Positions 4,757 through 30,541 of a stretch of DNA of 30,628 nucleotides are shown piece after piece; position 1 is the stretch's first letter; each line of letters opens with the position of its first letter. This DNA is from a virus, in IMG/VR virus record IMGVR_UViG_3300042507_006289, positions 1 to 30,628 of that record; one strand, given 5' to 3'. The notes under the pieces are model-generated. The model made no database searches. It was not told the origin of the DNA and saw only the letters and a program-made list of their open reading frames with translations. The translations under genes and the position numbers were made by a program.

Positions 4757-4760
4757 TAAG

Positions 4761-4766
4761 AAAGGA
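4761..4766 (+). promoter_or_regulatory. Shine-Dalgarno site for the 4774 gene
   Basis: AAAGGA lies seven bases before the ATG at 4774. It is one of the few recognisable ribosome-binding sites on the + strand, where most junctions instead use stop/start overlaps. It fixes the start of the next gene. Confidence 0.6.
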
Positions 4767-4773
4767 CTAAAAT

Positions 4774-7182: not shown

Positions 7183-8138
7183 CCCTGGCCCAGGCACGAC
7201 AGCTTCTGCATCAACACATCAGCCCTGACGGACCTGAGAGTGTGATGGTGCCCGCGCGGATCAACGAAGTCTGTGAACGCTTTTTTGTCAGTGGCCGGTG
7301 GAAAGGGATGATAGTAGAAGTCGACCTCGACGCCTCTCAAGGCTACGTCACCCTTCCCCGGCGCTGCGAAGCTGTCCTGGGAATCACGGTGGCCAAAGCC
7401 CCCCGGACTCCGTTCGGGCGCTGGTACTCTTTTGTGCCTGGGGGTCCGGGGCAACTCGATGGATCCACATACAACGGGACAGATCTTGTTTTGGACGCGG
7501 GTGACAGTCACCCCGTGTTCCGCGACCCGCCTTATGAGTCTTTCCGTCTGCGTGTCAAAGTCCCTAGCACATCCGACCGGGATACGGGTAACTACATGGT
7601 GCTCAAGGGCAACGACGCTGGCGGAAATTCTGTGTTCGGTGCCGACGGCAGCGAAGGTCTGCAGCTCAATCTGACGGCAGCCGAGAACACCACGACCCAA
7701 TATTTTTCTGCTTTGACCGGGGTTCTCAAACCCTTGACCAACGGCTACGTGACCCTGTGGGCCGTGAATGCCTCCGGTGCGGAAACGCAAATTGGAGAAT
7801 ATGAGCCGGGCGAAACCAATGTCGGTTACCGTCGCTACATGGTGCAGCGCGCCAGTGGCAGCGAAATCCCGACCGTGCGCGCCCTGTGCAAACGCCGCTT
7901 TGTGCCGGTCCAATCCGAGCACGACGACATTATCCCCGACAATATGGGGGCCCTTAAGCTGGGTTTGATTTCATTGAAATACGAGGACACCAACGACTTG
8001 GAGCGTTCGACCGAGTATTTCAACAAAGCGTTGTCCCTATTGAACGCAGAGTTGCGGGAACAGAGGGGCAGCCAATTCAACACCGTTCGTTTTAGCCCGC
8101 ATGGATTCGGGTTGGGGCGGATCAACCGACAATATTGA
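7179..8138 (+). CDS. Conserved phage structural protein, possible neck/adaptor (319 aa)
   Basis: The gene starts at an ATGA overlap. An N-terminal helical segment (about 1-40) precedes a long beta-rich middle. The C-terminal segment is helical: DNMGALKLGLISLKYEDTND, then SLLNAELREQRGS. This closing pattern, in which a small-residue helix is followed by a helix ending in RGS, reminds me of phage head-tail connector/tail tubular A-like proteins. The middle contains the YEPGETN...YRRY signature that I recall from uncharacterised phage structural proteins. This assignment is tentative. It lies immediately before the presumed internal virion proteins, which fits a connector position. Confidence 0.55.
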   Translation: MTLAQARQLLHQHISPDGPESVMVPARINEVCERFFVSGRWKGMIVEVDLDASQGYVTLPRRCEAVLGITVAKAPRTPFGRWYSFVPGGPGQLDGSTYNGTDLVLDAGDSHPVFRDPPYESFRLRVKVPSTSDRDTGNYMVLKGNDAGGNSVFGADGSEGLQLNLTAAENTTTQYFSALTGVLKPLTNGYVTLWAVNASGAETQIGEYEPGETNVGYRRYMVQRASGSEIPTVRALCKRRFVPVQSEHDDIIPDNMGALKLGLISLKYEDTNDLERSTEYFNKALSLLNAELREQRGSQFNTVRFSPHGFGLGRINRQY

Positions 8139-8143
8139 CCACA

Positions 8144-8470
8144 ATGAACAGCATGCGCCAGGAGCTACTGAGAAACAATCCGACTTACTACAAGACAAAT
8201 GCCCAAGCATTGAATCGGGACGCCGAGGCTTACGCGCGTATGCGTATGGCGTATAATGACCCTCTGAGCCCAACAAAAGGGAATGCATTGACATCTGCGA
8301 TGAGGTCGATCGGTAACGAGGATATTGTCGGCGGAGTGACGGGTTCGCGTATCAAAGAGGATTTGGCGCGGAGGCAAAAAGCCACCAATACTCGCGCCAA
8401 GTTAAACAGCCTCAAAGGAAACGATCTCAACGACGAACTTAAGCGCATGGAAGCCATGACGCGCCTGTAG
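8144..8470 (+). CDS. Small helical virion-module protein (108 aa)
   Basis: I prefer the ATG at 8144; a TTG overlapping the previous stop (8135) would add three residues. The product is strongly helical, rich in Arg, Lys, Asn and Met, and lacks Cys. The C-terminal part (KLNSLKGNDLNDELKRMEAM) could form a coiled coil. It is the first of four consecutive genes (8144, 8476, 9495, 10908) with helical, charged proteins, typical of internal virion or ejection proteins. No known family is recognised. Confidence 0.6.
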   Translation: MNSMRQELLRNNPTYYKTNAQALNRDAEAYARMRMAYNDPLSPTKGNALTSAMRSIGNEDIVGGVTGSRIKEDLARRQKATNTRAKLNSLKGNDLNDELKRMEAMTRL

Positions 8471-10907: not shown

Positions 10908-13900
10908 ATGCTACGCAAACCTCGTTCCTGGGTCGAAATTGAGGAGTCCGAGGATTATAAATCTTTGGACCCCGAAAAACGACTGCGCCTACTCGATCGC
11001 TGGTCGTCCAGCGTGCAACAGTACGGCACGGCCACTGGTGCGCTGGCTCGGGATTACAATGTCTCTAAACTTAATGAGTTTCGTACCCAAAAAACGCAGG
11101 AGATAAACTCTTTACTGACCCCTCCTGAGCAACCTTCGCTCGGCAAAGTTATTTCCGACCAGTTCCTCTCGGGCACTCGCGCATGGGACCAGGGTCTGAC
11201 AGCGGTCTCGGCGGCCAGCGGCTTGACCGATGTCGACGAGGCGGCCCAGAAAATCTCCGAGTCTGAACGCGCCAACCAGAACGTGGCGCAGACGGAGGAC
11301 ATGAAAAAGTTCCAGGAAGCCGAAGGCTTCGTCGAGTCGGCCAAGCAGATCCTTACTAATCCGATCGACGTAGCTTTGCCTTTGTTTGCCCAGAGCATGG
11401 GCAGTCAGATAACCCCGATGATCGCGGGTAGTGCGGCCGGTGCAGCGGTTGGCTCTGTCACCGGCCCCGGTGCGGCGGTGACCGGTTTGATCGGAGCGGG
11501 CGTTGGTTCTGGTGTTGGCGACGCAGTGGTTTCTTTCCCTGATTTTATTCGTGAGAAAGGCTACGACCTATCTGATCCGGAGCAGGTCAAAGCGGCGCTC
11601 AATGATCCTGATGTCGTAGCCGAAGCAGCCAAGAAATCGGCAGCTCGTGGCTTGATAGTTGGTGCCACGAGCGCCGTGGGCGGTGCAGTTGCTGGTAAGG
11701 CAACGGCGGCTGGCGTGGCGGCGGCGGCCGGTAAATCGGTTGGCCAACGCGCGCTTACTATCGGCGGCGCGTCGACAGCCGACGTGGCGATTCAGACCGG
11801 ACTCGAAGGTCTGGGCGAAGCGGGCGCGCAGTTGGCTTCGACCGGCAAGCTCAGTCCCAAGGACATCGCGGCGGAAATGTTCGTCCAGACTCCTGGTCAA
11901 TTGGCTGAAGTGGCCATTGGTACCGCCGCGCGGATTAAAGAGGTTGCGCCTCAGACTTCAGCGGAGTTGGAGAAGAAAGGAATTGTCAAAGCGCAAGAAG
12001 CCGCGATTGCTGCGCAGAATTTGGATGACTTGGCTACTGATCCAAAAGTTCAAAAAGTCATGGAGAGTACAACTCCACCTGACTCTGAGGAGCGGATTGA
12101 TGAACAGATTGATCTGCTTGAGGAACAAGTCGGCTTAGGTAGCGAAGGGCAGCAAGACTCGGCTGCGCAACTACCTCAGACTCAAGAACGGCCCACGCCT
12201 CCTACACTTTTAGAAACTACTGCTTTACCATCTCAGAGAACAGTAACCCAAACACTTCCCGACGTCTCTGTTTCTGCTCTTGGAGTTGCGGGGGATCAAC
12301 CTCTTGCGGAACCCGCTCAAGCCCCTGCGCCTGAACCGACCCAAGCTCCGGGCCGTTACACCCCTGAAGGACTGGCTGCGCTAAGCAATGAAGAACTGGC
12401 AGCGGACGAAACTGAACTTTCTTTGGCGGTAAACCGCGAAGCCACGGCGGCGACGCAACCGTCCGAAGGTGCGCGTGGTCAACAACAAGCTCAACAACTG
12501 GCCGAAGTTTCCCAGGAAGCACTGAACCGGGTGCGCGCGGAGCGACAGCGACGGGCCGGAGCTACGGTTACCGACCAAAGCGCTCCGCCGGAGCAAACTC
12601 CAGCCCCCGCGCCGCAACCTCAACAGCCCGTAGCAGCAAACGCGCCTGCAGAACCTACGCCAATTCAGCGCATTACTGGACCAAAACGCGCTGCAAATGT
12701 TAGCGACGAGACTGCACGGAAGATTCAAAACAGGGAACCTCTCACAGGCGACGAGTTTGGCAGGGCCGCTGTATCATTTGAGTTTGGCGATGCTATCCGT
12801 GAGTATTTTCCGAGTGGTGAGGGCGCAGTTTGGGTTGGCCGTGAAGAATCAGAACGGCTCGGCGCGCAGAGAAACGCAGGGATTGCGGCGACTTCTCGGA
12901 GAATCGATGAGAATATCGCAGCCCAACAACGTGCCGCAGCTACGCCGCCTGCACCCGCGCTTCTACCGCCGCCGCAGCAACCTAGCCAGCCGCCAGCGCC
13001 GACAGTCAACGTCCTCCCGACCGGCACTGATGCCGCGTTGCCCCCGCAACGCATGGCTCCGCAGCAGCTTTCCGACGACACGGCGACTGCGCCTGTGGTC
13101 GACGAAACAGGGGACGTGTTTTCAGGGGTCCAGGGGCGACCGGCAGTGACAGCGACCTCGGCGACGGCACTTCCGCCTGCTGCACCAGCACGGCCAACGG
13201 CTACCACTTCAAAACCAGCGGCGGTTGAGACGGCACCCGCACCAACACCGCCCGCAGCCGTAACGACTGTGCCCCTAACGGCAACTGAAACGGCGCCTGC
13301 ACCTGCACCAGCAAGTGCGCCATCACCTGCAGCTCCCCCGGTCGCTCCGGCTCCTACTCCCGATGCGCAGACGTTCGAGGACAGTCTGGTCGAGGAGGCC
13401 CGCAGTGCCGGGACTAATGTCACAGGGCGCACGAGTCTGGAGATCAAGGAGGCTGTCAAAGGTAAAGGTTGGTACCCGAAAACGAACATCAACAAAGTCG
13501 TAGCGGAGATCAAAGATCGTGTGCGCCAGCGCCGCGAGGCTGAGGTTGCTACGCCTACCCCCGCTCCCGCTCTTACTTCCGGCCCGGCACCCGCTACGCC
13601 TGAGACGGCAGCACAAGCTCTTCCTGAACCTGCGCGTCAGCTTATTCAAGAAAACCGCAACAAGGGTGCAGTCCCGACCAGCGCTACGATCAATACACGT
13701 TTTGCTGATGCTCCGGTTGAACAGCGCCAAGCCATTCGCCGCGAAGCCGTGCGTCAGGTAGCCCAAGACTTTGGTATCGCCTACAGCGATGATCTGGATT
13801 TCAACCCCGACTTCGACGGCAATGCTTCGATCCCGGTCCGGGTGTCGGCAACCGGCACCGAGCCGGTCTTTGTTAACAACCCGACCGTCACGGCCAAGCA

Positions 13901-16900
13901 AATCGACGCGGGTTTTACGCCGGTCGTCCCCGAGAACCAGCGGGCCAGCGTGGCCAAGGGCATCGAGTTTGACCCCGATACTGGCCGCGTGGCGTCCGCT
14001 TTTGCGCGTGGGGTGACTGTCACCCGCCCCGGCCAGTTGGAGAGCGCGGTCAAAGCCCAGCGCCCTGGGACCAGGGTCGAGCGGTCTTTGACAAAAGACG
14101 CTGACATCGAGCGGGAAGACGCGGCGATGAAGACTTTTACCGACGAGGACAAAGCAGAATACGAAATCGTTCGTCAGCGGTTGGAAAACATGGTCCCACG
14201 GTCACCGCAAATTGCCGCGCGTTTTGAGCAGGCGGACATGGTAGCCAAAGCAATTTCCAAGTGGGCGCATCAGCGCGCTTTGGACAAACGCCGCGCAAAA
14301 GGCGAGCGCAAGAATTACACGGCGTCTCAGGTCTGGAACTTCACCATGAAGGACGCGGGCGAGGATCTGAAGACTTTGCCCATGCAGGTGTCACTGGACG
14401 CTCCGGTCAACGAAACAAGCGGCGCGACACGCGGGGAAAACTTGGCCGACGAAGCGGACACCGACGCCGACACCGATACCGAAGATCGTGGTGCGTTTTC
14501 GGCCGCCGCCGAGGAAGCGGATTCTATTGAGGAGGGCGTGGCCAGGGACGAAGTGACCGAGGGCGGCACGGCCACGACAGACCGTTCGGGCACGGGCATG
14601 ACCTACTCCCAGGCTTTCAACATCGTCAACAATCCAAGGGTTAGGGGACAGGTGGGCAAGGGCAAAACGGCGCGGAATTTGCGTGCCGAGGCCCAGGAAC
14701 TTTTGGCGGCTGCGGAGCCAATGGTCGAGACCTTGGACAATGACGACGTCGACTACTGGGACTTCAAGATCGAGGACTTCCAAAACGTGGATGTCGGTAA
14801 CCCCGGCACGATCATTTCTTCCAGCCGCCAAGCCAAGAGTCCTTACATTGATCAGCAGCGTTCGTGGTTTGAGGACGTGGCCCGCGCCATGGGCGTGCGC
14901 CGCGCCAGTGCTTTGACTCCAGAGCAGCACGGCACGCTGGCCCGTTACTTTGCTGAGAAATACCGTCCGTTTTTCGAGGACGGTAACACGACGCTTCCCG
15001 TCGACGCGGTCGGTCAGGATTTGCCGGAACTGCAAGCGCGCATGGCTGCGACGGACGGTGCGGCGTCGGAATACCGCGCGGTAATCGACAAACTCAAAGC
15101 CGAGTTTCCGGGGGCCCGAGTTGTTTTCAGCGCTTCACAGAACGCCACAGCTTGGTACCACCCGCGCTATCGCGACACTATTTTTGTCAATCCTTTGCTT
15201 TTGGAACAAGAGCTGAACGGCCTGACCGACAGCGAGGCCACGCCGTTTATCCGCGCGTTGATGCAGGAGGAATACATCCACATGGCGGAGAGCCAGAACA
15301 TCCCGCGCGAGTGGGTCATGGCGATTAGCCAGCGTCTTGATGACCGTGTGCGTCAGCGGGTTATCGACGAGTACGTTGCGGCTGACATGTTCGATGACCC
15401 AGCCGAGAGACAAGCGGTCATCGACAGTCTGGATGACTACGCTATTGGCTCTGAGTACCTGCGCATGCTGATGCAGCGGATGCAGAGTGGCCGGTCCACG
15501 GAGGACCTGAGCCCGCAGAACCTGCCGCAAGATATTTTACAACGTATCATGGAGATGCTTCAGGCGGTGGTGCGCCGTCTGCGCGCCCAGCTCGAAGTGG
15601 CTCGTGATCCGGTGCTGGCACACACTATTCGGGCAATCGAAGCGGGGACGCGCAAGCTGGCAATTCAAGCCGAGGTTAATCAGTTATCTCCGCAAGACCG
15701 CGCGACTTTAGTCAACGACTTAGCTACAGCGCGCGACTTGTTCGCCCGACCGAGAGCGGCGACAACGCAAAGCAAGTCTCAATCTCCAAACTACGCAGAA
15801 GAAGCCGCAAAAGTTAAGCCGGGCAAAAGCTATTGGATCAACGCTGAGGGCAGGGTAATCGATGTTGTAGCTGAAGACACTGACGGGAAAAGTGCAACAC
15901 ACGGTCGTTATGTGCGCAATTGGGTAGACGCGCGCATTGGTAAATTTTTCCCAGGTGAAAGTGAAAAAGAAACCGCTCGCAGGATAGAAACACGGGCCCG
16001 AGAGCTGATGACTCAAGATCCATCTCTTCGTGAGGAATTGGATCAAGAAGCTATTGAGTTGGCTTACCAAGAAGCAGTCGATTTAGCGGAAGTGTTGGAT
16101 CAACCTGTTCCTGATATTGATGATTTTAGAGCTGATGCAGCACGACGTCTTGGTCCGAGTGACATGGCATATAATGAAGCGGCCATCGAGGCGGGATGGG
16201 TGAGAATCGCGGTTCCTGGAAAATTTTCTGCGGAAGCTCCTATTCAAGTTCAAACACGGAAAGGTGCTGTGTCTTCTAGGACAAACAGCACAATCAACGA
16301 ATTAAAAAGCCTCAGAAATATTTCGGTAGTTGAAGACGGGGCTATTACTAACAAAGCGGTTAACAGGTCTGACGTGGGACGCATGCTTCAATTCATTCGC
16401 TCATTGCCAGAGCCCCCGACTGGTCCGCGTTTCGCCCGTCCCGGCAACCGCATTCGGGGGCGCAGGGTTGGCGCTCCGGTGCGCGGCAAAGGCGGGCTTT
16501 GGAGCAATATCAAAGCGATCGTTACCGGTGACTTTTCGGCCACTAAGTCCCAGACCGGCGGGTGGTTTTCTTCGGGCAAGCTGACGCCGTTTGAACGCGA
16601 TATTGTCCAGAAGCCCCGGCAGAAGATCGCATCTGAAGCCGCTGCTGCCGAGTTCACTATTCAGGAATTTCGCCGGGCCATTAAGGCGACTTACGGCAAA
16701 AGCCCGGTGCCGACTGAAACAATCAACCGCGCTTTGGGATCTACCGAGAACCCGTTGACTGACACGCAGATGGCCGAGCTGCGCAAGATCCGAAATAAAG
16801 AAGAGCGCGAGGCCAAGAAGGCCGAGTTCAAATCGCTTAACCGCGATGCGGCGCGAGCCGACCGGGCCACGGCGCTCGGAGAACTGCCGCCCAAGGTGGC

Positions 16901-19571
16901 GTCGGCCCTCAGCCGCATGCGCGACAAAATCGACAGCTTGAGCCGACGCATGATCGAGGGCGGGTATATTCCGGAGACCCTGGTCCCCGTGTTCGATGAG
17001 AACATGGATATCTACCTCCACCGCGAATACCTCATTTTCCAAAACCCCGAGTGGAAAGAGAACATGCTCAACCCCAAAACGGAGGAGCAAGCCCGCGTCC
17101 GGGCGGCAGCCGAGCGTCTCTTTGTCGACCGGGCGGTCGCCGAGGAAGCTGTGCGTCTGCGTCGCATCGCCAAGGAACAGGGACAGCCGATCTCCAAGGA
17201 CGAGGCCAAGAAGCGCGCCAAGGCCAGCACTGACGTCATTGCCCGCCGGGCCAATGACCTGGCGCTGGAGTACCTGAGTGTGGCCGATGAAAATTCTCGC
17301 ATGTTCTTCATGGGCACTCTGCCTCCGGGCAAGCGCAACCTTTCGATCATCAAGGTGCGCGGTCAGATCCCGAAGGAGATCCGCGCGTTCTGGGGCGAGA
17401 TCAACGACGCCGAGACCAACTTTGCCCAGACCGTGGCCAAGATGTCAGCCTTCATGGCGCAGCACGACGCAGCTACCGAGCTTTTGCAGCACGGCATTGA
17501 AAACGGGTACATTTGGAAACGCGACCAGGACAACCGTTCGGTCTTTAATGGTGGGACCCGTAAATGGGATGTGATCTTGGCGGGCCAGCGTCAGACTGGA
17601 TTCGCGACCAAAGAAGACGCCGAAAAGTGGCGTTTGGCCGAGCTGCCCAAGGTGCAGGATAAACTGCAATCGGTCGCCCCTCCCGCAGGTTATACACACC
17701 TGATCAAGCCTGGTTCGGCCAACCCCAAAGCCATCGAACCCCTGAACGATGCGTATGGGCCGCCTGAGTTGGCTGAGGCTTTGGCTCAAATGGTTACGCC
17801 TAGGGAAAGCAGCGGCTTTTATCGCGGGGTGAGTTTCTTGACCGCGATGTTTATGGCTATGAAGACCGTGGGCTACTTCCCGCAAGCCTACGTACGCAAC
17901 TTCCTGAGCAACCCGTTTGGCCAACTGATCAGCGGCGGTATTAACGCTCAGAACTGGGGTAACATGCTTTCGGCTCTGCGCGAGGGCACGCGGGTGGCGC
18001 GGCTTAACTCAGGTCTGCGCGGAGCGATGGACAAGGTCGGGCCGACCCAGGAACTGCGCGAGAAACTTTTGCGCTTGGGTGTTTTGAGCGACAACCCACG
18101 CGGCACGATGCTTAAGGACCTCTACGAAAAGGGCATCGAGGGTCAGGCTATTCAGGAACTTTTGAACCGCAAAGATTTTAAGACCTTCGGCGAGAAGCTC
18201 GGAGTCAAAGCGGTGCAGACGGCTGACAAAGCGTTTCAAAAAATGGCCGATATTTATAACGGCATCGACGACCAGTGGAAAACTTTTGGTTGGATTATGG
18301 AGGTTCAAAACCAGCGCCGGGCACATCCGGACTGGACGCAGGACCGCGTCGAACAGAAGGCGGCCGAGAACATCCGCGACATGGTCTGGACTTACAGCAT
18401 GTCGCCGGAGATCACCAAGAACGTACGACGCATCCCAGTGCTGGCTCCGTTCATCACCTGGACCAGCGAAGTTATCCGCGCCACTTCTAACGCTGTAGCG
18501 ATCGCCAACGAAGAGATGCGGGTCGGCAAGGAGACCGGTAACAAGGCTATGTATCGCAACGGCATTAACCGCCGCGCCGGTCAAATTGCAGCTTTCACCG
18601 CGCTTCCCGCTTTGGCTTTGGCCATGCGTTCGATACTTGGCTACGACGAGGAAGACGAGGAAGCAGTGCGCTCGACACTACCTGAGTGGCAAAAGAACGC
18701 GCAGATTGTTTTGCTTCCAAGAAAAAGCGACGGCAAACAATTATTTGTTGATCTGAGCTACCTCGACCCGCTGCAAGTATTTAAGGAACCCGCGATCGCC
18801 ATGGTTCGAGCCATTCGAGGTGGCGATAACCCGTTTGATGTGGCGGCTGCGGGATTCACTGAAGCCCTGAAACCCGTATTCAGCGAGCAACTCTTTGCCG
18901 GGGCCATGTTTGACATCGCCCGCAATACCACGGCTGACGGCCGACGCATCTGGAATCCGACTGACACTGCGTCTAGCAAAACTTCGGCTATGATCTGGCA
19001 CGTCATTGAAAAGGGCGGCCCCGGCTTGGCTGTGGGCACCGTGCCCCGCATTTACAAGGCGGCGACCGGGACGGTCTCGCCTTCAGGCCGAAGCTTTAAT
19101 TTGTGGGCAGAAATTGGGGCTCCGATTTCCGGACAGCGCATCCAGGAAGTGGACGCACAGACTTCGTTGCGTCAAGCGGTCACGCGCTTCAAGTCTCTCG
19201 ACGCTGACTCTACTCAACTTCTCAGCAACTACATGACCAGTCGTGGCACGGTAAACCCTGGCGACATTCCGGCGGCGTATGACAATGCCAACAGAGCGAA
19301 ACGTGAGGCTTTCGAGGAACTGGCTAAGGTTTACAATTCGGCATTGCGTCTGGGCACTCCGGAGAACATTGCCCGCCAAACTTTGATGGGTGTGGGCCGC
19401 GACATGGGCTTATCCCGCGAAGACGCAGCCATGATCATCCGGGGCGACTACCAAAACTGGCGGCCATCTCGCCAGATGTTTGACCTGGCGCTTACCCGCG
19501 AAGGCGGGCGCGAGCGGATCAAGGCCCTGATGGATCACTTACGAGAAGTGAACCAACAAGAGCGGAATTAA
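10908..19571 (+). CDS. Giant internal virion / polyvalent-type protein (2887 aa)
   Basis: One uninterrupted frame of 8.7 kb. In order: a charged N-terminal helix region; Gly/Ala-rich hydrophobic stretches at about 163-211 and 245-298 that could insert in a membrane; a Pro/Ala/Thr/Gln-rich linker (about 460-820); a segment with SLDAPV (1162-1167) and LADE (from 1179) followed by an acidic run; a helical block with EEYIHMAE (H1458); an unusual more AT-rich segment (about 1618-1826); and a long helical C-terminal region with hydrophobic stretches near 2304-2330 and 2558-2578. The C-terminal part, including the segment RRIPVLAPFITWTSEV, resembles my recollection of LPD38-type C-termini of phage polyvalent proteins (not verified). 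Such proteins are carried in the particle and enter with the DNA. Catalytic activity is not established. Confidence 0.75.
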   Translation: MLRKPRSWVEIEESEDYKSLDPEKRLRLLDRWSSSVQQYGTATGALARDYNVSKLNEFRTQKTQEINSLLTPPEQPSLGKVISDQFLSGTRAWDQGLTAVSAASGLTDVDEAAQKISESERANQNVAQTEDMKKFQEAEGFVESAKQILTNPIDVALPLFAQSMGSQITPMIAGSAAGAAVGSVTGPGAAVTGLIGAGVGSGVGDAVVSFPDFIREKGYDLSDPEQVKAALNDPDVVAEAAKKSAARGLIVGATSAVGGAVAGKATAAGVAAAAGKSVGQRALTIGGASTADVAIQTGLEGLGEAGAQLASTGKLSPKDIAAEMFVQTPGQLAEVAIGTAARIKEVAPQTSAELEKKGIVKAQEAAIAAQNLDDLATDPKVQKVMESTTPPDSEERIDEQIDLLEEQVGLGSEGQQDSAAQLPQTQERPTPPTLLETTALPSQRTVTQTLPDVSVSALGVAGDQPLAEPAQAPAPEPTQAPGRYTPEGLAALSNEELAADETELSLAVNREATAATQPSEGARGQQQAQQLAEVSQEALNRVRAERQRRAGATVTDQSAPPEQTPAPAPQPQQPVAANAPAEPTPIQRITGPKRAANVSDETARKIQNREPLTGDEFGRAAVSFEFGDAIREYFPSGEGAVWVGREESERLGAQRNAGIAATSRRIDENIAAQQRAAATPPAPALLPPPQQPSQPPAPTVNVLPTGTDAALPPQRMAPQQLSDDTATAPVVDETGDVFSGVQGRPAVTATSATALPPAAPARPTATTSKPAAVETAPAPTPPAAVTTVPLTATETAPAPAPASAPSPAAPPVAPAPTPDAQTFEDSLVEEARSAGTNVTGRTSLEIKEAVKGKGWYPKTNINKVVAEIKDRVRQRREAEVATPTPAPALTSGPAPATPETAAQALPEPARQLIQENRNKGAVPTSATINTRFADAPVEQRQAIRREAVRQVAQDFGIAYSDDLDFNPDFDGNASIPVRVSATGTEPVFVNNPTVTAKQIDAGFTPVVPENQRASVAKGIEFDPDTGRVASAFARGVTVTRPGQLESAVKAQRPGTRVERSLTKDADIEREDAAMKTFTDEDKAEYEIVRQRLENMVPRSPQIAARFEQADMVAKAISKWAHQRALDKRRAKGERKNYTASQVWNFTMKDAGEDLKTLPMQVSLDAPVNETSGATRGENLADEADTDADTDTEDRGAFSAAAEEADSIEEGVARDEVTEGGTATTDRSGTGMTYSQAFNIVNNPRVRGQVGKGKTARNLRAEAQELLAAAEPMVETLDNDDVDYWDFKIEDFQNVDVGNPGTIISSSRQAKSPYIDQQRSWFEDVARAMGVRRASALTPEQHGTLARYFAEKYRPFFEDGNTTLPVDAVGQDLPELQARMAATDGAASEYRAVIDKLKAEFPGARVVFSASQNATAWYHPRYRDTIFVNPLLLEQELNGLTDSEATPFIRALMQEEYIHMAESQNIPREWVMAISQRLDDRVRQRVIDEYVAADMFDDPAERQAVIDSLDDYAIGSEYLRMLMQRMQSGRSTEDLSPQNLPQDILQRIMEMLQAVVRRLRAQLEVARDPVLAHTIRAIEAGTRKLAIQAEVNQLSPQDRATLVNDLATARDLFARPRAATTQSKSQSPNYAEEAAKVKPGKSYWINAEGRVIDVVAEDTDGKSATHGRYVRNWVDARIGKFFPGESEKETARRIETRARELMTQDPSLREELDQEAIELAYQEAVDLAEVLDQPVPDIDDFRADAARRLGPSDMAYNEAAIEAGWVRIAVPGKFSAEAPIQVQTRKGAVSSRTNSTINELKSLRNISVVEDGAITNKAVNRSDVGRMLQFIRSLPEPPTGPRFARPGNRIRGRRVGAPVRGKGGLWSNIKAIVTGDFSATKSQTGGWFSSGKLTPFERDIVQKPRQKIASEAAAAEFTIQEFRRAIKATYGKSPVPTETINRALGSTENPLTDTQMAELRKIRNKEEREAKKAEFKSLNRDAARADRATALGELPPKVASALSRMRDKIDSLSRRMIEGGYIPETLVPVFDENMDIYLHREYLIFQNPEWKENMLNPKTEEQARVRAAAERLFVDRAVAEEAVRLRRIAKEQGQPISKDEAKKRAKASTDVIARRANDLALEYLSVADENSRMFFMGTLPPGKRNLSIIKVRGQIPKEIRAFWGEINDAETNFAQTVAKMSAFMAQHDAATELLQHGIENGYIWKRDQDNRSVFNGGTRKWDVILAGQRQTGFATKEDAEKWRLAELPKVQDKLQSVAPPAGYTHLIKPGSANPKAIEPLNDAYGPPELAEALAQMVTPRESSGFYRGVSFLTAMFMAMKTVGYFPQAYVRNFLSNPFGQLISGGINAQNWGNMLSALREGTRVARLNSGLRGAMDKVGPTQELREKLLRLGVLSDNPRGTMLKDLYEKGIEGQAIQELLNRKDFKTFGEKLGVKAVQTADKAFQKMADIYNGIDDQWKTFGWIMEVQNQRRAHPDWTQDRVEQKAAENIRDMVWTYSMSPEITKNVRRIPVLAPFITWTSEVIRATSNAVAIANEEMRVGKETGNKAMYRNGINRRAGQIAAFTALPALALAMRSILGYDEEDEEAVRSTLPEWQKNAQIVLLPRKSDGKQLFVDLSYLDPLQVFKEPAIAMVRAIRGGDNPFDVAAAGFTEALKPVFSEQLFAGAMFDIARNTTADGRRIWNPTDTASSKTSAMIWHVIEKGGPGLAVGTVPRIYKAATGTVSPSGRSFNLWAEIGAPISGQRIQEVDAQTSLRQAVTRFKSLDADSTQLLSNYMTSRGTVNPGDIPAAYDNANRAKREAFEELAKVYNSALRLGTPENIARQTLMGVGRDMGLSREDAAMIIRGDYQNWRPSRQMFDLALTREGGRERIKALMDHLREVNQQERN

Positions 19572-20609: not shown

Positions 20610-20800
20610 TCTGCGATGTCAAAGGTGGGGTTAGGCAGCACACGAAACTGCTCGGTGCGAAAGTGGCGGATGACTCCGTCTTTCTCCAGAACCACAGCGA
20701 AGACGTCGTTGGCGAACGTGCCGCCGTCGCGCACATACATGAGCCAGCCGTAGCCGATGTCAGTTTTCACCGGCACAGGGTTTTTGAATTCATGGATCAT
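20606..20800 (-). CDS. Conserved small phage protein (64 aa)
   Basis: I start it at the ATG at 20800, which overlaps the previous stop (ATGA); an upstream ATG at 20848 lies in the previous gene. It has a compact beta-rich pattern, with V.VKTDIGYGW then FAVVLEKDGVIRHFRTEQFRV. This kind of short protein (VKT..G.GW...HFR..QIRV) is familiar from uncharacterised phage proteins. No Cys, signal peptide or catalytic residue was seen. Linked by overlaps to the glycosyltransferase before and the lipoprotein after it. Confidence 0.6.
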   Translation of the reverse strand: MIHEFKNPVPVKTDIGYGWLMYVRDGGTFANDVFAVVLEKDGVIRHFRTEQFRVLPNPTFDIAE

Positions 20801-21492
20801 GGGACCAGGCGTTTGATCTCTTCTTCGTGATTCTCCAGGCCGTCCCAAGACCGGAACTGACGGACGAAGACCAGACCGTTGTGCGGGTTCATCCAGGCGA
20901 ACTTGTCGCGGTGTTTCTCGTAGGCGTAAGCGCCCAGCACATTGAACTCGGAGAAGCTGCGGTAGGGCCGGTTGGTGATGTATTGTTCGAGCGACATGCC
21001 GTGGCGCTCTTCGAGGAACTGCCGCACTTCGACGTGCAGCCAGCGCGGATACATGAACGGGTGCCGCCGCATGAACTCATACTTGGGCTCCCAGCCCAGC
21101 ACTTCGGTCACGATGGGTTGCCAGGGTTCGCGTCCAACTGTTTCGTAGGGCTCGTAGTAGACGATCGGCTTGCCATCAACCATGAGCGAGAGTGGGGACA
21201 TGGGCTTGAGGAGCACGGTGTCTGAGTCCCAGTGCAGGATGTATTCGGCGTCGGAGTAAACGTCGGCCATGAGCTTGCTGATTTGCTGACCCAAGTAGTC
21301 ATCGCCGTAGATCGGACACTCGTGAACTTTTTCAGCGGTCAGGTGCGCCAGGAGGTGGCTGTCACCCGCAGGCACAATAATATGGTAGTTGCGGATTCCA
21401 TGGACGTGGCGGTGCAGGGAACGAAGGGCGTAGGCGAGCCAGCCGAAATCGCCGCGATAGGAACGAAGGACTAGGTCTGTGACGGGGTGCAT
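20797..21492 (-). CDS. GT-A-type glycosyltransferase-like protein (231 aa)
   Basis: An N-terminal Rossmann-like half (TDLVLRSYRGDFGWL, then HIIVPAG) leads to D89-S90-D91 in the HWDSDTVLLKP motif, the metal/nucleotide-sugar binding DxD of GT-A fold glycosyltransferases. The overall style is close to DUF6492-type phage/bacterial glycosyltransferases. It overlaps the methyltransferase gene by about 22 bases and the next gene by 4. Substrate is not visible; candidates are sugars on phage DNA, a virion protein or a host surface glycan. Length is short but plausible for this family. Confidence 0.7.
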   Translation of the reverse strand: MHPVTDLVLRSYRGDFGWLAYALRSLHRHVHGIRNYHIIVPAGDSHLLAHLTAEKVHECPIYGDDYLGQQISKLMADVYSDAEYILHWDSDTVLLKPMSPLSLMVDGKPIVYYEPYETVGREPWQPIVTEVLGWEPKYEFMRRHPFMYPRWLHVEVRQFLEERHGMSLEQYITNRPYRSFSEFNVLGAYAYEKHRDKFAWMNPHNGLVFVRQFRSWDGLENHEEEIKRLVP

Positions 21493-22127
21493 AGAATATC
21501 GTATTGAGGACCACGGTCTTCCGGGTAGCAGGTGACGTCGTATCTGAATTCTTTTTCAATGAGCCAGTGCAGGTCGGACGGCGTCTTTTTGCGCCCGGCT
21601 AGGGCGCTCTCGTTGACTTCGACCCAAAGGACCGGTTTGTGCTGAGAGATGGTCTGGTGCGCGCCAACCAGGGCTTCATGTTCGCAGCCTTCGATATCGA
21701 GTTTGAAGAAGTCCAGCCGCCGGAGGTTCAGGGAGTCCAGGGTCGAGAGGGAAACTGAGCCGGTTCCCGAGCCAATTCGGCTCGCCCCGGCATTTTTGTC
21801 GAAGTGGTAGTCAGCCAGGAAGTCATGGTCAGAGAGCCCGGCATTGAAGGTCACGGCCTGCGGGCAGTTGTGGCAGAGGCAGGAGTAGGCGGCGGGGTTG
21901 GGTTCGAAGGCAAAGACTTTGCCTCCGGGGCCTACGGCTTTGAGGTAAGCGATCGTGTGGTCGCCAATGAAGGCCCCGGCATCCACGACCCAGTCGCCTT
22001 CTTGGATGTGTGGCAAGATTAAGCCGATTGAATAGACATCGTGGTCTAGACGGCGCTCTTCTTCAACCCACTTGGAGATGTGGGTGTCGCCCTCGATGAC
22101 CGCGATGCCGTTGTCCAGTATCTTCAT
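21471..22127 (-). CDS. FkbM-family SAM-dependent methyltransferase (218 aa)
   Basis: Class I methyltransferase motifs are clear: motif I VVDAGAFIGDHT (47-58), FAFEPNP (72-78), and the FkbM signature FFKLDIEGCEHEAL (140-153). The family methylates hydroxyl groups, often on sugars. It lies directly upstream of the glycosyltransferase with an overlap, and both may act on the same glycan or glycosylated target (inference). Start ATG overlaps the previous gene stop (ATGA). Confidence 0.85.
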   Translation of the reverse strand: MKILDNGIAVIEGDTHISKWVEEERRLDHDVYSIGLILPHIQEGDWVVDAGAFIGDHTIAYLKAVGPGGKVFAFEPNPAAYSCLCHNCPQAVTFNAGLSDHDFLADYHFDKNAGASRIGSGTGSVSLSTLDSLNLRRLDFFKLDIEGCEHEALVGAHQTISQHKPVLWVEVNESALAGRKKTPSDLHWLIEKEFRYDVTCYPEDRGPQYDILCTPSQT

Positions 22128-25084: not shown

Positions 25085-25972
25085 TTAGGCAGCCTCCTTC
25101 TGCTGGTTTGGTTGGCTAAAACCCATGGCGGCCAAGATGCCAGCCGCCTTCGACTTGAGGTCCTCGCGCACCGCTTCGTTCTCGCGCACGTCCTCGATGT
25201 CGAAGGGCGTGATGTCGCGCAGGACACGCTGGCGCAGGTTCTCCAGCTCCTGATCCTTGGTCACGTTGAGTGACGGGATAAGCTGGCACAGCTCGGCCAG
25301 GTTGGTGAGCAGCGACGCGTGAATGCGGGTGCCTTCCTTCTTGGCCGAGACCTCGGTCATGCGCTTGACGATGTGGTCAAGGCGCTCGGTAAGACGGCGG
25401 TACAGGTCGTTGCGGGCGTCATTGACTGCCTCGGCCACGCGCAAGTCAGCCTGAGCCCGCAGTTCGGACATGGCCTCCTCGGGCATGTCGTCGAGACGGA
25501 AGTCGCGGCTGTCGGGCATCGGCATATAGCTGACGTCGACGTAGAACTTGGTGCGGACCTCGGAGGTCGATGGATAGTCGGCGCGGTTGGCTAGGGCTCC
25601 AAGCTGCAGGATCGCGGTGTCGCGGTGCTTCTCGTAGTCAGCTATGAACTGGTCGAAGAGCGATTGCAGGGACGTGATCCTTGCCCTCAACTCGTCGGTG
25701 AATTTCTCCCACTGGGCCACGGGCAGGAGACGCACGGCGTCGTCGCCCCAGGGCAGGGTTTGAGTGTTGACCCAGGCCCGCAGCGCGGCGGCGGCGCTTT
25801 GGATGGGTTTGACGGACTCCTCGGGCAGGATGTTCTTGACGAACGCTCCGGCGTTGGAGTTGGCGTTTTTGCTGATCAGGACCTCACGGGTGACGTTGCG
25901 GTCGGTTTTCTTTGGGTTGAATAAGCCGATGTGCAGGCTTACCAACATCGCTTGATTGCGGATGGTGCTCAT
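25085..25972 (-). CDS. Coiled/helical protein, likely DUF3150-type partner of MoxR/VWA (295 aa)
   Basis: I start at the ATG at 25972 (MSTIRNQAMLVSLHIGLF); the frame is open 54 bases further but the upstream part is promoter. The N-terminal beta-like strand (AMLVSLHIGLFNPKKTD) and long helical body match my recollection of DUF3150-type phage proteins that travel with MoxR ATPase and VWA genes (not verified). No catalytic residues visible. A TTGACA-16-TATTGT promoter lies just upstream and an A/C-rich leader replaces a Shine-Dalgarno sequence. Confidence 0.6.
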   Translation of the reverse strand: MSTIRNQAMLVSLHIGLFNPKKTDRNVTREVLISKNANSNAGAFVKNILPEESVKPIQSAAAALRAWVNTQTLPWGDDAVRLLPVAQWEKFTDELRARITSLQSLFDQFIADYEKHRDTAILQLGALANRADYPSTSEVRTKFYVDVSYMPMPDSRDFRLDDMPEEAMSELRAQADLRVAEAVNDARNDLYRRLTERLDHIVKRMTEVSAKKEGTRIHASLLTNLAELCQLIPSLNVTKDQELENLRQRVLRDITPFDIEDVRENEAVREDLKSKAAGILAAMGFSQPNQQKEAA

Positions 25973-26022
25973 GGTGTGATTTTGTTGTGTTGTGTTTGGG
26001 TGGTTGTCACCTGAATATGGGA

Positions 26023-26050
26023 ACAATATGTCCCCAGCTCAGGGTGTCAA
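26023..26050 (-). promoter_or_regulatory. Sigma70-type promoter for the 25972 gene
   Basis: On the - strand, TTGACA (26050-26045) is followed after 16 bases by TATTGT (26028-26023). The -35 box is perfect and the -10 matches 4 of 6. It precedes the ATG by about 50 bases, with an A/C-rich leader (25973-26009) between. Confidence 0.55.
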
Positions 26051-26054
26051 CAGG

Positions 26055-26166
26055 AAATTTGAGGGGTCCCGTCTACCGTGGTTTGCCAGCAACGGACGGG
26101 CACGCTGTCGAGAAAACATGAGGCTTGCGCCTCTGGGCTCCGGGCACTCACGGCTTGCCCGATGGT
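26055..26166. other. Intergenic spacer between the VWA-peptidase gene and the 25972 promoter
   Basis: No gene is seen here. It holds the terminator hairpin at 26113-26133 and a second, weaker inverted repeat (CCCGTC at 26068-26073 with GACGGG at 26095-26100). Confidence 0.5.
26113..26133 (-). terminator. Terminator of the MoxR/VWA operon
   Basis: On the - strand GAGGC, loop GCAA, GCCTC is followed by ATGTTTTCT. A short GC stem with a GNRA-like loop and a T-run, 34 bases after the 26167 stop, fits an intrinsic terminator. Confidence 0.6.
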
Positions 26167-27450
26167 TTAGTTGGCGGTGTTGACCCGGACGACCTCGCCC
26201 CAAGGATACTCGGCCCCGCCGTAGTCGACCCAGATAACCGGGCAGTCGGGGGAGTCCTTGGGGAAGTCGCCGTAGCCGTCGGTGAAATAGACGATGGCCT
26301 CGGGCGGCTTGGTCATGTTGCGGGCGTGGTCGAAGACCGGCTTGAAGTCGGTGCCGCCGCCGCCCTTGGGTCGGAAGGACGTGATGTCGTCGCCGTCGCC
26401 ATACTCCTCGACCGTGTTGACCTGCGTGTCACAATCGATGACGGTGATACGCTCGGGGCGCACGGTGTCCATGCAGTATTGCACCTCGCCAAGAAACTTG
26501 GTGAGGAGACCGTCCTGGATGGAACCGGAGGTGTCGATGGCCACGATGAACTCGCCGACCCGCTCGCTGTAGAGCGTGGGCAGGTAGATGTCGTCCTCCA
26601 TGAACCGGCGGTCGGGGCGTTGCTCGTCGTAGTCGTCGGCGGCTGCAGCGGACAGGAGATCACGCAGGATGTGACGCCAGTCCTGCTGACCCTTGAGGTG
26701 CTTCTCCACGATGCGGGCGATGTTGCCTGCGCCGCGTCCTTGCAGCTTGGCCGAGTTGTGGCCCTCGACGAGGCGGTTCTGCCACTCGCCCTCGCTGTTG
26801 CCGGGCGCGTCGGCTGGCTCCATGAAGTCGCCCATGCCGCCGTCGCCAGGAGTCGGGTCGGGCTTGCCAGTGCCCTTGCCGTCACCGGGCTCATTGCTCG
26901 GGGTGCTGCCCTCGCCTTGGCCTTCGCCGTCTTGCGGCTCGCCCTCACCCTCACCGCCGGGCGGCGGTGGAGGTGGCTGCATGGGTTCGCCGAGCAGGGG
27001 ATAGATCTCCTCGCCGACCATGTTGTTATACTTGGCGTCGATAAGCGCGCCTTTGGGCAGCTTGAACGGAGCGACGCGACCGGCGGCCGACTCGTCCTCG
27101 TTATACTGCACGAGGTAGTTGTTGATCTCGTAGTCGGTGGCCATGTTCCACTTGGTCATGTCGCGGTCGCCCAAGCGCCAGAGATGCCCGAACGCGGGAT
27201 GCAGAACCTCGTGGGCCAGCACGGTCAGGATCTCTTGGTCGTCAAGCGAGGCGGAGAACGCGGGGTTGTAGAACAGGGTGATGCCGTCAGTACAGAAAGT
27301 CGGTACGGACGGTGTAGGTTTGAGGCTCATCTTGAGGATGAGCGTAGCGAAGAACGGATGGTCGACGACCATGCGCACGATCTGGCGCTCGATACGGAGC
27401 GCCTCGTCGTTGGCGTTGAACGTGGGCTTAGGTTTGGGTGTAATGGTCAT
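26167..27450 (-). CDS. VWA-like/metal-dependent peptidase (DUF2201, COG3864 type; 427 aa)
   Basis: HEVLH (80-84) plus H89 in the N-terminal domain is a zinc-peptidase motif, followed by WNMATDYEINNYL (101-113). Pro/Gly/Glu-rich linker about 157-225. C-terminal VWA-like domain: DTSGS (306-310, MIDAS), GGGTDF (364-369) and FTDG (389-392). This is the DUF2201_N/DUF2201 layout from memory, known to pair with MoxR AAA+ proteins. It could present or remodel substrates; catalytic activity unproved. Start overlaps the previous stop (ATGA). Confidence 0.85.
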   Translation of the reverse strand: MTITPKPKPTFNANDEALRIERQIVRMVVDHPFFATLILKMSLKPTPSVPTFCTDGITLFYNPAFSASLDDQEILTVLAHEVLHPAFGHLWRLGDRDMTKWNMATDYEINNYLVQYNEDESAAGRVAPFKLPKGALIDAKYNNMVGEEIYPLLGEPMQPPPPPPGGEGEGEPQDGEGQGEGSTPSNEPGDGKGTGKPDPTPGDGGMGDFMEPADAPGNSEGEWQNRLVEGHNSAKLQGRGAGNIARIVEKHLKGQQDWRHILRDLLSAAAADDYDEQRPDRRFMEDDIYLPTLYSERVGEFIVAIDTSGSIQDGLLTKFLGEVQYCMDTVRPERITVIDCDTQVNTVEEYGDGDDITSFRPKGGGGTDFKPVFDHARNMTKPPEAIVYFTDGYGDFPKDSPDCPVIWVDYGGAEYPWGEVVRVNTAN

Positions 27451-27659
27451 TGGATGATGGCAGTGCCGTTGCGGATTTCGATAGCGCCCGCCTCGCCCGC
27501 CATGACACAGCGGGGTTGGCGGGTGCGATCACGGGTTGTGATGGGCACACGGCAGTCGATGCCGGTGACCATGTGGCACGCCCCACGGTAGTGAACCGTG
27601 AGGACGTTGCGCTGTTGGGCCCGCGAAGCGGGTTTGTTGTAGTGAAACCAGAATTTCAC
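27447..27659 (-). CDS. Conserved small phage protein (70 aa)
   Basis: ATG at 27659; start and end both overlap neighbours by four bases. KFWFHYNKPAS..., CRVPITTRDRTRQPRCVM and the acidic/Gly segment resemble a small phage protein I recall with FHYNKPAS and RQP.C motifs, function unknown. Three Cys residues are spread apart, so no zinc cluster. Sits between the MoxR ATPase and the VWA protein, so may be part of the module. Confidence 0.65.
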   Translation of the reverse strand: MKFWFHYNKPASRAQQRNVLTVHYRGACHMVTGIDCRVPITTRDRTRQPRCVMAGEAGAIEIRNGTAIIQ

Positions 27660-27838
27660 AGGGTTTTTCCTTTTGAGGGTGCGCTGTCGACGATGTGTCG
27701 GCAGGCGGCACGGGCTGCGGCTTCGACCTTGTCGATCGCGGTCTGTGAGACGCGGGAGAACTTGTGCGCTCGCGACTTCGCAGCGTGATCGAGGATGAAG
27801 CGTTTGACTTTGGATGGACTGATGATGCTGTTACTCAT
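27656..27838 (-). CDS. Small basic helical protein, histone-fold-like pattern (60 aa)
   Basis: ATG at 27838 directly follows the MoxR stop. The string FSRVSQTAIDKVEAAARAAC resembles the second helix of histone-fold proteins (RVS..A...), and SKGKTL the second loop (RKT). A short first helix (SPSKVKRFILDHAA) precedes it; the third helix of a full histone fold is missing. Basic overall. A DNA- or protein-binding helper is an inference; similar short phage proteins ending in GKTL are known to me only as hypotheticals. Confidence 0.55.
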   Translation of the reverse strand: MSNSIISPSKVKRFILDHAAKSRAHKFSRVSQTAIDKVEAAARAACRHIVDSAPSKGKTL

Positions 27839-28882
27839 TTATTTGATACCGAGGATGATGTTGCCGTTCTTGTTGGCCCACTGGGCGAAGGCCGGGGACT
27901 TGACCGGAGACTCCGCGCCGGTCATGCGGCCACGGATGGCCAGCTTGACCGTCAGCACGTCGATCGGCTTGGGCAGCCGGGACGTGTAGCGGGTGACGCG
28001 GTCGAAGTTCTTCGACGTGGACTTGTTGGCGAGTGCCGTGGCCAGCGCATACTGCACGCTCGGCTCGGATGGCACGTCGGCCGTGTCGGGCGACAGCAGG
28101 ATGGCGTTGACGTCGGGCAGGTCGTTGTAGACCGAGCAGAAGGCGTTGAACTGCGTGCCGACAGCTTGGCCGATCAGACCGGCGACCATGGCGAGCCGGA
28201 CCTCCGACTGCGGGGAGACGCCGGAGCGGAGCAGGTCGCTCGTAAACTCCCACGAGCGGGGCGAGGCAAACGCGCCGCCCTTCCAACTTGCGCCGTCGAA
28301 GTCGGAGAGGTGGCCGGGGCACATCTGCAGGTAGGCGATGACCATCTCGTGCAGGTTGTTGTTGAGCGCCCAGGTGGTCCACTCGTCGTGGTCAACGGCG
28401 AGGGTGATCTCCATTAGGCGGTTCTGCGTGGCGCTGCCGAGTTTCTCGATGTGCACGCGGTCGATGGCGCGGTTACCGGCCAGCACGATCAGGGTGTTGT
28501 CGGGCACGCGGTAGTCGCCGATCGCCTTGTCGAGCAGGAGCTGGAGCGAGGCGTTTTGTGTGGCTTTGGCCGCACACGGGAACTCGTCGAGCAGCCAGGT
28601 GTTGCCCGGAGTGGTCGGATAGTCGGCCGGGATGGCGAACTTCATCATCGGGTTCATCGCATCGCTGCGGTCGATGTAGGGGAATCCCCGAACGTCGGTC
28701 GGCGCGGCGTAGCTAAGACGCGTGTCGATGAAGTTGAGGCCGTTGTCGTGCGAGAACTGACGCACGATGGTGGACTTGCCCACGCCGGGAGCGGCTTGGA
28801 TGAAGGGGACGATGCGGCCCTTGGAGGCGAGGCAGGCTTTGAGGACTTCGGTGAGTCCGGAGGGTTTGATGGTTAGTTGCAT
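27839..28882 (-). CDS. MoxR-family AAA+ ATPase (347 aa)
   Basis: Walker A APGVGKST (31-38), Walker B WLLDEF (96-101), sensor-like LAGNR (N137) and R155 fit a MoxR/CbbQ-type AAA+ module. The C-terminal ~180 residues are helical lid/substrate region without other motif. MoxR ATPases act as chaperone-like remodellers with VWA partners, here encoded two genes downstream. No Shine-Dalgarno sequence; the leader (28883-28904) is A/C-rich with almost no G. Confidence 0.9.
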   Translation of the reverse strand: MQLTIKPSGLTEVLKACLASKGRIVPFIQAAPGVGKSTIVRQFSHDNGLNFIDTRLSYAAPTDVRGFPYIDRSDAMNPMMKFAIPADYPTTPGNTWLLDEFPCAAKATQNASLQLLLDKAIGDYRVPDNTLIVLAGNRAIDRVHIEKLGSATQNRLMEITLAVDHDEWTTWALNNNLHEMVIAYLQMCPGHLSDFDGASWKGGAFASPRSWEFTSDLLRSGVSPQSEVRLAMVAGLIGQAVGTQFNAFCSVYNDLPDVNAILLSPDTADVPSEPSVQYALATALANKSTSKNFDRVTRYTSRLPKPIDVLTVKLAIRGRMTGAESPVKSPAFAQWANKNGNIILGIK

Positions 28883-28895
28883 AATGTGTGGTGTG

Positions 28896-29060
28896 TTATT
28901 TGTTGCGGGTGGTGGTCACCTGACGGCGCAAGAAAGCGCCGAGGCGTTCGATAAGACTGGGTTTGCGGTTGTAAGTGGAAGAACGACACAGATGGATATA
29001 GACAGCGGGGTCCAGCAAAGGACGGTCACTGTGGTATCCGGTTAAATATTTGGGGGTCAT
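28896..29060 (-). CDS. Small hypothetical protein (54 aa)
   Basis: ATG at 29060 overlaps the previous stop (ATGA). Product MTPKYLTGYHSDRPLLDPAV and onwards is a basic, Tyr/Arg-rich helical protein, with no Cys cluster or membrane segment. Gap of 13 bases to the MoxR start. Not recognised; its overlap with the upstream gene and intact frame suggest it is real. Confidence 0.55.
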   Translation of the reverse strand: MTPKYLTGYHSDRPLLDPAVYIHLCRSSTYNRKPSLIERLGAFLRRQVTTTRNK

Positions 29061-29516: not shown

Positions 29517-29888
29517 TCATTGTGCTAGTTTTTGAGCAGTTGCGGTTGCGAGCAGGCGGCCCCAGGTCTCTTGATCAAGATCACAGATTGTGACTTTTGG
29601 ATCAGAGAGAATGGGCAGCCACTCTTGGTATTTCTCCATGTTCGGCGTGCCATCTTGCCAGAGGCACACTTCACGGAGGAAAGCGATCAGGTCGTCGAAG
29701 TAGAAGTAAACGGCGCTGAGACAACCCTCGTTGTCGTCGATGTCGTAGAGCATGTCTTCGTCTTCGACCTCGTCGGCACGGGCAGCTTTGAGGTAGGTCG
29801 CCACGGTGTGCGGGTCGAGGTTGATGATCGGCCGGTAGCTCGGGTCGCGAGCCATGGCCAGGACTAGGCGGACTTCGTCGGTGCTCAT
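29517..29888 (-). CDS. Acidic hypothetical protein (123 aa)
   Basis: ATG at 29888 overlaps the stop of the upstream gene (ATGA). Acidic and helical (ARADEVEDEDMLYDIDDNEG), with no membrane segment or Cys cluster. Such acidic small proteins can be inhibitors or DNA mimics, but nothing specific is seen. Followed by a gap of four bases to the next gene. Confidence 0.55.
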   Translation of the reverse strand: MSTDEVRLVLAMARDPSYRPIINLDPHTVATYLKAARADEVEDEDMLYDIDDNEGCLSAVYFYFDDLIAFLREVCLWQDGTPNMEKYQEWLPILSDPKVTICDLDQETWGRLLATATAQKLAQ

Positions 29889-30541
29889 GCGGCAAGGATG
29901 ACGGCCGTGGCGGCGGTGGTGGCCATGTCGCGGTCGATCTCGGCCAGTTTTTGTTCCATCGCTTCGACGGAGGCCTTGCGCTCGACCTTGGTGTTGATGC
30001 GCTCCAGGTACTCGTCGGGGATGAAGGCTTGCAGGCCGGGCCAGGCTTTGAGCGCGGCGTTAAGCGACTTGGCTGAGTCGAGGAACGCGCGGATGTCGGA
30101 GCGGATTTTGCTCCACTTCTCGATCAGCGCAGTCTCCCGGACTTTGAGGTCGTAGAAACCTTTGATCTCGGGACAGATGTCGGAGGGCACGGTGAACCGG
30201 TGGCTGGTGGTGCAGCGCGGAGGCACGGTCACAGACTTGGTATCGCCCTGCACTTTGATGTCCACGGAATGGTATTTGTCGCCCTCGGTGACGGTAAGAC
30301 GCAGGTGAGCGTCCCCGCCGTAGGTCGACAGCGGTTCCAGCCACGTGCTGGGCATGAGGCTTTTGAGGTGAAGGTGCTCGCCCCAGGTGATCTTGGCTAT
30401 GATCGGGTGTGAGGCGGGCAGCTTGAAGGTGTCATGAATACGCTCGACGCCGAACTCCAGCCGGTAATCTTTGGGCTTGAGCCGGTTGTCGATGTAATTG
30501 CCGACGTCATATTTAAGTTCTTTGGATATTCTAACTAACAT
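29885..30541 (-). CDS. Possible Nmad5-like protein (218 aa)
   Basis: ATG at 30541. The N-terminal ~110 residues are beta-rich; the C-terminal half is helical, with the pattern FLDSAKSLNAALKAWPGLQA then IPDEYLERINTKVERK. That pattern (helix with s..LN.ALK.WP...  IP..YLERI) matches my memory of the Nmad5 proteins, named as putative nucleotide-modification-associated domains in phages. The comparison is from memory and covers only the C-terminal half. No Shine-Dalgarno sequence; the leader is A/C-rich (30542-30572). Confidence 0.45.
   Translation of the reverse strand: MLVRISKELKYDVGNYIDNRLKPKDYRLEFGVERIHDTFKLPASHPIIAKITWGEHLHLKSLMPSTWLEPLSTYGGDAHLRLTVTEGDKYHSVDIKVQGDTKSVTVPPRCTTSHRFTVPSDICPEIKGFYDLKVRETALIEKWSKIRSDIRAFLDSAKSLNAALKAWPGLQAFIPDEYLERINTKVERKASVEAMEQKLAEIDRDMATTAATAVILAA

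Follow-up and report, generated by a model that had tools for sequence, protein, structure and literature searches.

A MoxR-type AAA+ ATPase, a DUF2201 protein with metallopeptidase-like and VWA domains, and a DUF3150-like partner constitute, as judged from sequence, a conserved three-gene module, for which we favour, with moderate confidence, a role as a ternary remodelling or protease machine acting in DNA metabolism and not only in virion assembly, the DUF3150-like protein being its third subunit. The module lies in a 30,628-base virus record (IMGVR_UViG_3300042507_006289, positions 1–30,628), the whole of which is hereafter called the window. A preliminary description had grouped five ORFs into a candidate undescribed system, and all five are present where it placed them on the minus strand; read along that strand they encode the MoxR-type ATPase (27839–28882), a 60-aa histone-like protein (27656–27838), a 70-aa basic protein (27447–27659), the DUF2201 metallopeptidase-VWA protein (26167–27450) and the partner, whose gene ends at 25085. 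The first four genes abut or overlap by no more than 4 bases and hence probably form one operon. Elsewhere in the window, two very long ORFs (10908–19571 and 1469–4756, 2887 and 1095 aa) have no Pfam match, adjacent DUF6492 and FkbM-type methyltransferase genes occupy 20797–22127, and 29885–30541 shows a weak, below-cut-off likeness to Nmad5, a nucleotide-modification associated domain (E 0.0034).

Linkage among the three proteins extends over distant loci. A search seeded with the partner retrieves 23 of these, and all 15 that are adequately flanked carry both MoxR and VWA genes. A search seeded with the VWA protein yields 42 non-redundant loci (the best 80 of 460 before redundancy was removed, a selection biased towards the window's kind), 18 of which are flanked on either side by 3.5 kb or more; MoxR is found in all 18 and the partner in 14, where it shares the orientation of the others at a distance of no more than about 4 kb, the gene order taking three forms. 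Because the genes remain co-oriented through three orders, their linkage outlives rearrangement and does not merely reflect one inherited arrangement. The pairwise distances of the three proteins are correlated (r 0.76–0.84, against a maximum of 0.27 when labels are shuffled), a correlation for which shared phage ancestry may account too, there being no control gene. On the VWA tree, presence of the partner changes state five times, whereas shuffled states average 11.5 changes and never fall below 8, as would be expected for an old trio with losses in some lineages, apparently old and stable rather than patchy. These results bear out the earlier view of MoxR, VWA/peptidase and partner as a unit.

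Loci without the partner include those of N4-like phages, phage G and phiFa, and an unfiltered hmmsearch of partner-less loci for a diverged copy gave nothing below E 0.27; the pair therefore works there either without the partner or with an undetected third protein. In four other loci (L057, at 3067–3903, L063, L065 and L074) the MoxR-VWA slot is filled by another protein, about 275 aa long, which has no match among deposited phages and is a possible alternative third component. The ATPase and VWA families are represented in 808 and 562 deposited phage records, respectively. The trio, which occurs in many other uncultivated phages besides that of the window, is easy to miss because isolated phages almost entirely lack it, the exception being a 65,014-bp type deposited three times.

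The ATPase (347 aa) matches phrog_1297 ('ATPase', E 3.5e-83) and has intact catalytic motifs, confirming the AAA+ assignment made previously. The MoxR-clade motifs examined are present, namely Walker A (APGVGKS, residues 31–37), Walker B (LLDE, 97–100), the sensor-1 asparagine (N137) and a candidate arginine finger (R155), and these residues are kept in 82–93 of the 87–93 homologues aligned at the respective columns. The protein scores 14.5 bits against Pfam AAA_3 (MoxR), below the gathering score of 27, and on its own has no match among PDB sequences; we therefore label it MoxR-type, not a Pfam member, its placement resting on phrog_1297 and on a profile of 13 phage and plasmid ATPases. Among solved structures this profile picks out Midasin, CobS, CbbQ and NorQ, matches that are favoured by the three plasmid CbbQ-type members it includes, and Midasin is matched more strongly than CobS.

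The second protein (427 aa) comprises an N-terminal zinc-peptidase-like domain with an HExxHx4H motif, an acidic Pro/Gly-rich linker and a C-terminal VWA domain with a MIDAS (D306-x-S308-x-S310, T367, D391). Both of its DUF2201 domains score far above their Pfam cut-offs (PF13203, DUF2201_N, E 1.4e-41, 143 bits against 23.2; PF09967, the DUF2201 VWA domain, E 4.6e-24, 85 bits against 26.4), which establishes it as a DUF2201 metallopeptidase-VWA protein and agrees with its earlier reading as a zinc/VWA protein. Among 111 homologues, the majority of which share about 30% identity with the window protein, and which were selected by peptide patterns that exclude the HExxH and MIDAS residues, H80, E81, H84 and H89 are kept in 109–111 and the MIDAS residues in 110–111. 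The HExxH site could be structural rather than catalytic. The corresponding family, phrog_1314, is named 'HNH endonuclease', a label carried by many RefSeq phage proteins (for example in record NC_019514.1); as it is contradicted by the DUF2201 metallopeptidase and VWA domains, it is probably a propagated misannotation.

Phage pairs of this kind have been read as CobST (Liu et al. 2021, PMC8651126), that is, as a viral cobaltochelatase borrowing the host CobN to raise cobalamin, and CobS is indeed among the solved structures matched by the ATPase profile. That match is nevertheless weaker than the one to Midasin, the VWA protein matches DUF2201 and retains its HExxH domain instead of matching CobT_C, the CobT-type VWA domain PF11775 is absent from its Pfam matches, and no CobN was found among the large ORFs scanned. 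The cobaltochelatase reading also leaves the partner unexplained, and we regard it as highly improbable for the window. The profile of the VWA family itself has no match among PDB sequences. More generally, CobST, NorQD, RavA-ViaA and Midasin all combine, as in the window, a MoxR-clade AAA+ protein with a MIDAS/VWA partner, but their clients differ and no fused HExxH domain together with a DUF3150-like protein is described for them in the literature searched.

The partner (295 aa, 25085–25972) is a remote relative of DUF3150 according to profile comparison. Its designation as a 'DUF3150-type' gene thus holds as kinship but not as membership, since the window protein has no match to DUF3150 (PF11348) in Pfam and only some of its relatives touch the family: 18 of 42 match at E<0.1 (best 1.1e-6), and the sole relative scored directly, that of L070, reaches 21.8 bits, below the gathering score of 24.9. 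The kinship is indicated by a single hhalign comparison of the partner profile with plasmid DUF3150 proteins that are Pfam-positive and lie in matching gene context (probability 96.8%, E 2.4e-10, 154 columns). An AF2 model of the partner is confident (pLDDT 91.5, pTM 0.84) and finds no fold counterpart in the PDB, STAND, FtsH and beta-propeller structures included, whereas in BFVD eight predicted viral proteins match at E below 1e-3; the five best have TM 0.76–0.86 and include the one named DUF3150. The fold therefore appears to be new. When the partner profile is searched against PDB sequences, the matches (apolipoproteins among them) seem to arise by chance from long helices, and they were rejected.

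The partner ORF is open to a TTG at 26026, but the start is probably the ATG at 25972, because a leader shared with the MoxR gene, TCAGGTGACnACCACC, lies at nearly matching distance (25–26 nt) 5' of the ATG in both. On the minus strand it occurs as TCAGGTGACAACCACC at 25999–26014, 26 nt before the partner ATG, and as TCAGGTGACCACCACC at 28908–28923, 25 nt before that of MoxR; allowing one mismatch at most, its core is found four times in the window, whereas shuffled sequences average 0.6 matches and none of 100 shuffles reaches four. Also upstream of the partner on this strand are a promoter (TTGACA-16-TATTGT, 26050–26023) and an overlapping palindrome (GGGAACA-ATA-TGTCCC), which together span 26019–26050. 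Neither the promoter proposed in the preliminary description (one match in the window, mean by chance 1.8) nor the palindrome exceeds chance by count, but the two elements are largely conserved in four relatives (L001–L004), which keep TTGACA and the GGGGA/TTCCC arms, and it is by this conservation only that both are judged probably real. Of the proposed terminator there is a terminator-like hairpin at 26133–26120, though a weak one.

The two-protein pair was known before. A MoxR-vWA pair with an N-terminal metallopeptidase has been reported in jumbo phages (group 2.2), with a proposed role in virion assembly (Iyer et al. 2021, PMC7824862), and gp24 and gp25 of N4 are listed as core genes and noted as middle genes (Chan et al. 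2014, PMC4193335). With these and the CobST reading (PMC8651126) in print, the statement that the role of such pairs in phages is not described does not stand. The pair of group 2.2 jumbo phages, N4 gp24/gp25 and the RefSeq combination of 'ATPase' and 'HNH endonuclease' all consist of the same phrog_1297 motor and the same phrog_1314 DUF2201 protein; the reported pair is made of two proteins, whereas the window's branch adds a DUF3150-like third, and the neighbours and plasmid copies of this branch point away from a purely virion role. Among the open-licence literature searched we found no description of the phage or plasmid trio with this third protein, nor any paper naming DUF3150, absence there being no proof. 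What survives of the claim to an undescribed system is accordingly the trio with its third protein, which we did not find described, whereas the MoxR-VWA pair is known and the small proteins fall outside it.

The trio is not confined to phages. All six Burkholderiales plasmid records inspected carry it as AAA–partner–DUF2201, and in five of them the three genes are adjacent; type IV secretion system (T4SS) genes follow just downstream in four of the six (four among the five with adjacent genes). In the VWA tree these plasmid copies cluster as a single group nested among the phage sequences, which suggests transfer between phages and plasmids. Parallel AAA–DUF3150–VWA clusters are found on IncP-7/IncC-type plasmids, several of those inspected adjoining Bet/exonuclease genes, and a search with the DUF3150 protein of pCAR1 returns 1,134 plasmid records, 982 of which are predicted to be conjugative. 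In pCAR1, ORF101 and ORF103 had been noted as MoxR and VWA (PMC2642839). The MoxR/CbbQ–DUF3150–VWA cluster (pCAR1 ORF101–103, IncC and relatives) is built on the same tripartite plan, and its third protein is related to the partner at profile level; the window trio differs from that of pCAR1, whose VWA domain is ordinary (CoxE/CobT-like) and without the DUF2201 peptidase domain, and whose AAA protein is CbbQ-type.

A similar logic, in which MoxR and vWA are joined by a third core protein and some vWA proteins are fused to peptidases, characterizes the cellular ternary MoxR-vWA conflict systems, which use other third proteins (VMAP, iSTAND, FtsH; Kaur et al. 2020, PMC7159879). This shared logic, including the vWA-peptidase fusion (PMC7159879; PMC12839542), and the carriage of the trio by two kinds of mobile element would be consistent with a defence or counter-defence system aimed at the host or at competitors. 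By domain and fold, however, the third protein appears to be a different one, the window partner having no VMAP, iSTAND, FtsH or beta-propeller Pfam domain and no match to solved structures, STAND, FtsH and beta-propeller folds included; moreover, no effector-associated domain was found in the window proteins scanned, and the trio sits on mobile elements as an old and stable assembly instead of a patchy one. A conflict function is therefore unlikely.

The genes surrounding the trio are mostly those of replication. In 25 trio loci (131 neighbouring proteins scanned), the families that recur most are those of DNA polymerase, primase, DnaB, helicase and exonuclease, and terminase occurs too; the neighbour genes of MinM2 agree with this replication-gene context, and in the N4-like phage S6 the pair lies beside Mu Gam-like and RNA polymerase genes, in agreement with a DNA-processing context. 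This bears on the possibility that MoxR-VWA is a virion-assembly chaperone or protease folding or processing structural proteins, as proposed for the identical metallopeptidase-VWA architecture by analogy with the archaeal virus ATV (PMC7824862). Although the terminase neighbours and the very long, possibly structural ORFs of the window would suit such a role, the module lies on the strand opposite those ORFs, N4 gp24 and gp25 are middle and not late genes (PMC4193335), replication genes predominate among the trio's neighbours, and the trio also occurs on plasmids, which make no virion. We consider virion assembly doubtful as its function, and since plasmids keep the trio, its client cannot be a virion protein alone.

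From the conservation of the trio, its motifs, its linkage and its distribution we infer a physical complex that would act as an ATP-driven protein-remodelling machine, probably proteolytic, an explanation which as a whole we hold to be somewhat favoured by the evidence. The MoxR-clade AAA+ ring would be the motor; the DUF2201 protein would provide a MIDAS docking site and an HExxH zinc-peptidase site, both intact in sequence; and the DUF3150-like partner would be the third subunit, most likely serving as adaptor or scaffold to hold or present the substrate. A substrate docked via the MIDAS would be pulled or unfolded by the motor and then clipped or released. The element would use the module during its own DNA-processing phase (replication, recombination or transfer) and not only for virion assembly. 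We prefer this target because the neighbours are mostly replication genes and because plasmids fit badly with a virion-only role, whereas the terminase genes among the neighbours and the T4SS genes after the trio in four of six plasmids count against it; the latter adjacency would suit a role in building a surface machine as well.

The two small genes between MoxR and VWA appear, on comparative grounds, to be passengers in a variable slot and not parts of the module. A place for them in the machine, whether as subunit or as substrate, would accord with their tight packing in one operon and with the position of the 60-aa gene, which adjoins MoxR/VWA in the window as well as in L001 and L004 and is close to VWA in L042. 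They fail, however, to co-occur consistently with the module, the outcome that the preliminary description had itself named as refuting. Among 16 records with the 60-aa gene that were searched whole, VWA and MoxR are found in L004 and in the L042/L134 contig and neither in the other 14, which reach 72.8 kb (three of about 70 kb, while many may be fragments); the partner is likewise absent from all 13 of these that were tested. The 70-aa gene, said to be conserved, is missing from both relatives in which the slot can be seen, replaced in L001 by an unrelated 137-aa ORF, although the rest of the module is 93–97% identical, and in L004 by an ORF of about 50 aa; its one homologue (47% identity) has an unrelated context in L133, a record without a VWA match. 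A subunit or substrate role for either small protein is thus very unlikely. By eye, the N terminus of the 137-aa ORF in L001 (542–955) resembles an excisionase/MerR-type helix-turn-helix.

The 60-aa protein had been called histone-fold-like, and its AF2 model (pLDDT 89) has two helices and ends directly after the second. Nearly all Foldseek matches are histones (HBb, TM 0.68), every E-value being above 1, and the best PDB profile match is 9F2C, the alpha3 histone HTkC (E 0.031, not significant alone). Its sequence has an RVS in the putative loop L1 and, close to the C terminus, a GKT (ending ..KGKTL), and its alpha3 would be truncated; the RxTxxxD motif is lacking, K replacing R and the D being missing. 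Fold, profile and motif, each weak as a single score, together make it a probable minimal alpha3-type histone; its pI of 10.7 is compatible with DNA binding and dimerisation. Its predicted fold, RVS L1, GKT and apparently truncated alpha3 resemble those of alpha3 histones (HTkC, HBb and the phage histones of Schwab et al. 2024). The latter also lack RxTxxxD and are defined by a C-terminal tetramerisation helix (PMC11390915), from which the 60-aa protein differs in lacking that helix and, indeed, any third helix. Apart from the contigs of two close relatives, the family is found in 17 more from uncultivated phages, and it has no match among deposited phages. One of its contigs, L117, carries two copies (4588–4845 and 7950–8180); another, the 70,776-base contig L004/L131, has ends that overlap each other within the 60-aa gene and so may represent an entire genome of about 70.7 kb, circular or circularly permuted.

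The MoxR-VWA pair belongs to the core gene set that N4-like phages share, and hundreds of deposited phages carry it; a third component with a confidently predicted, apparently new fold, and a trio that is also carried by plasmids, offer a concrete route to what this machine does, while the 60-aa protein adds a candidate family of minimal phage histones. It is conceivable, if a long shot, that a mobile-element-wide AAA+ protease with a new-fold third subunit strips or processes DNA-bound proteins and is here co-expressed with a minimal phage histone. If this were true, host DNA-binding proteins would be removed while the phage's own histone coats the phage DNA.
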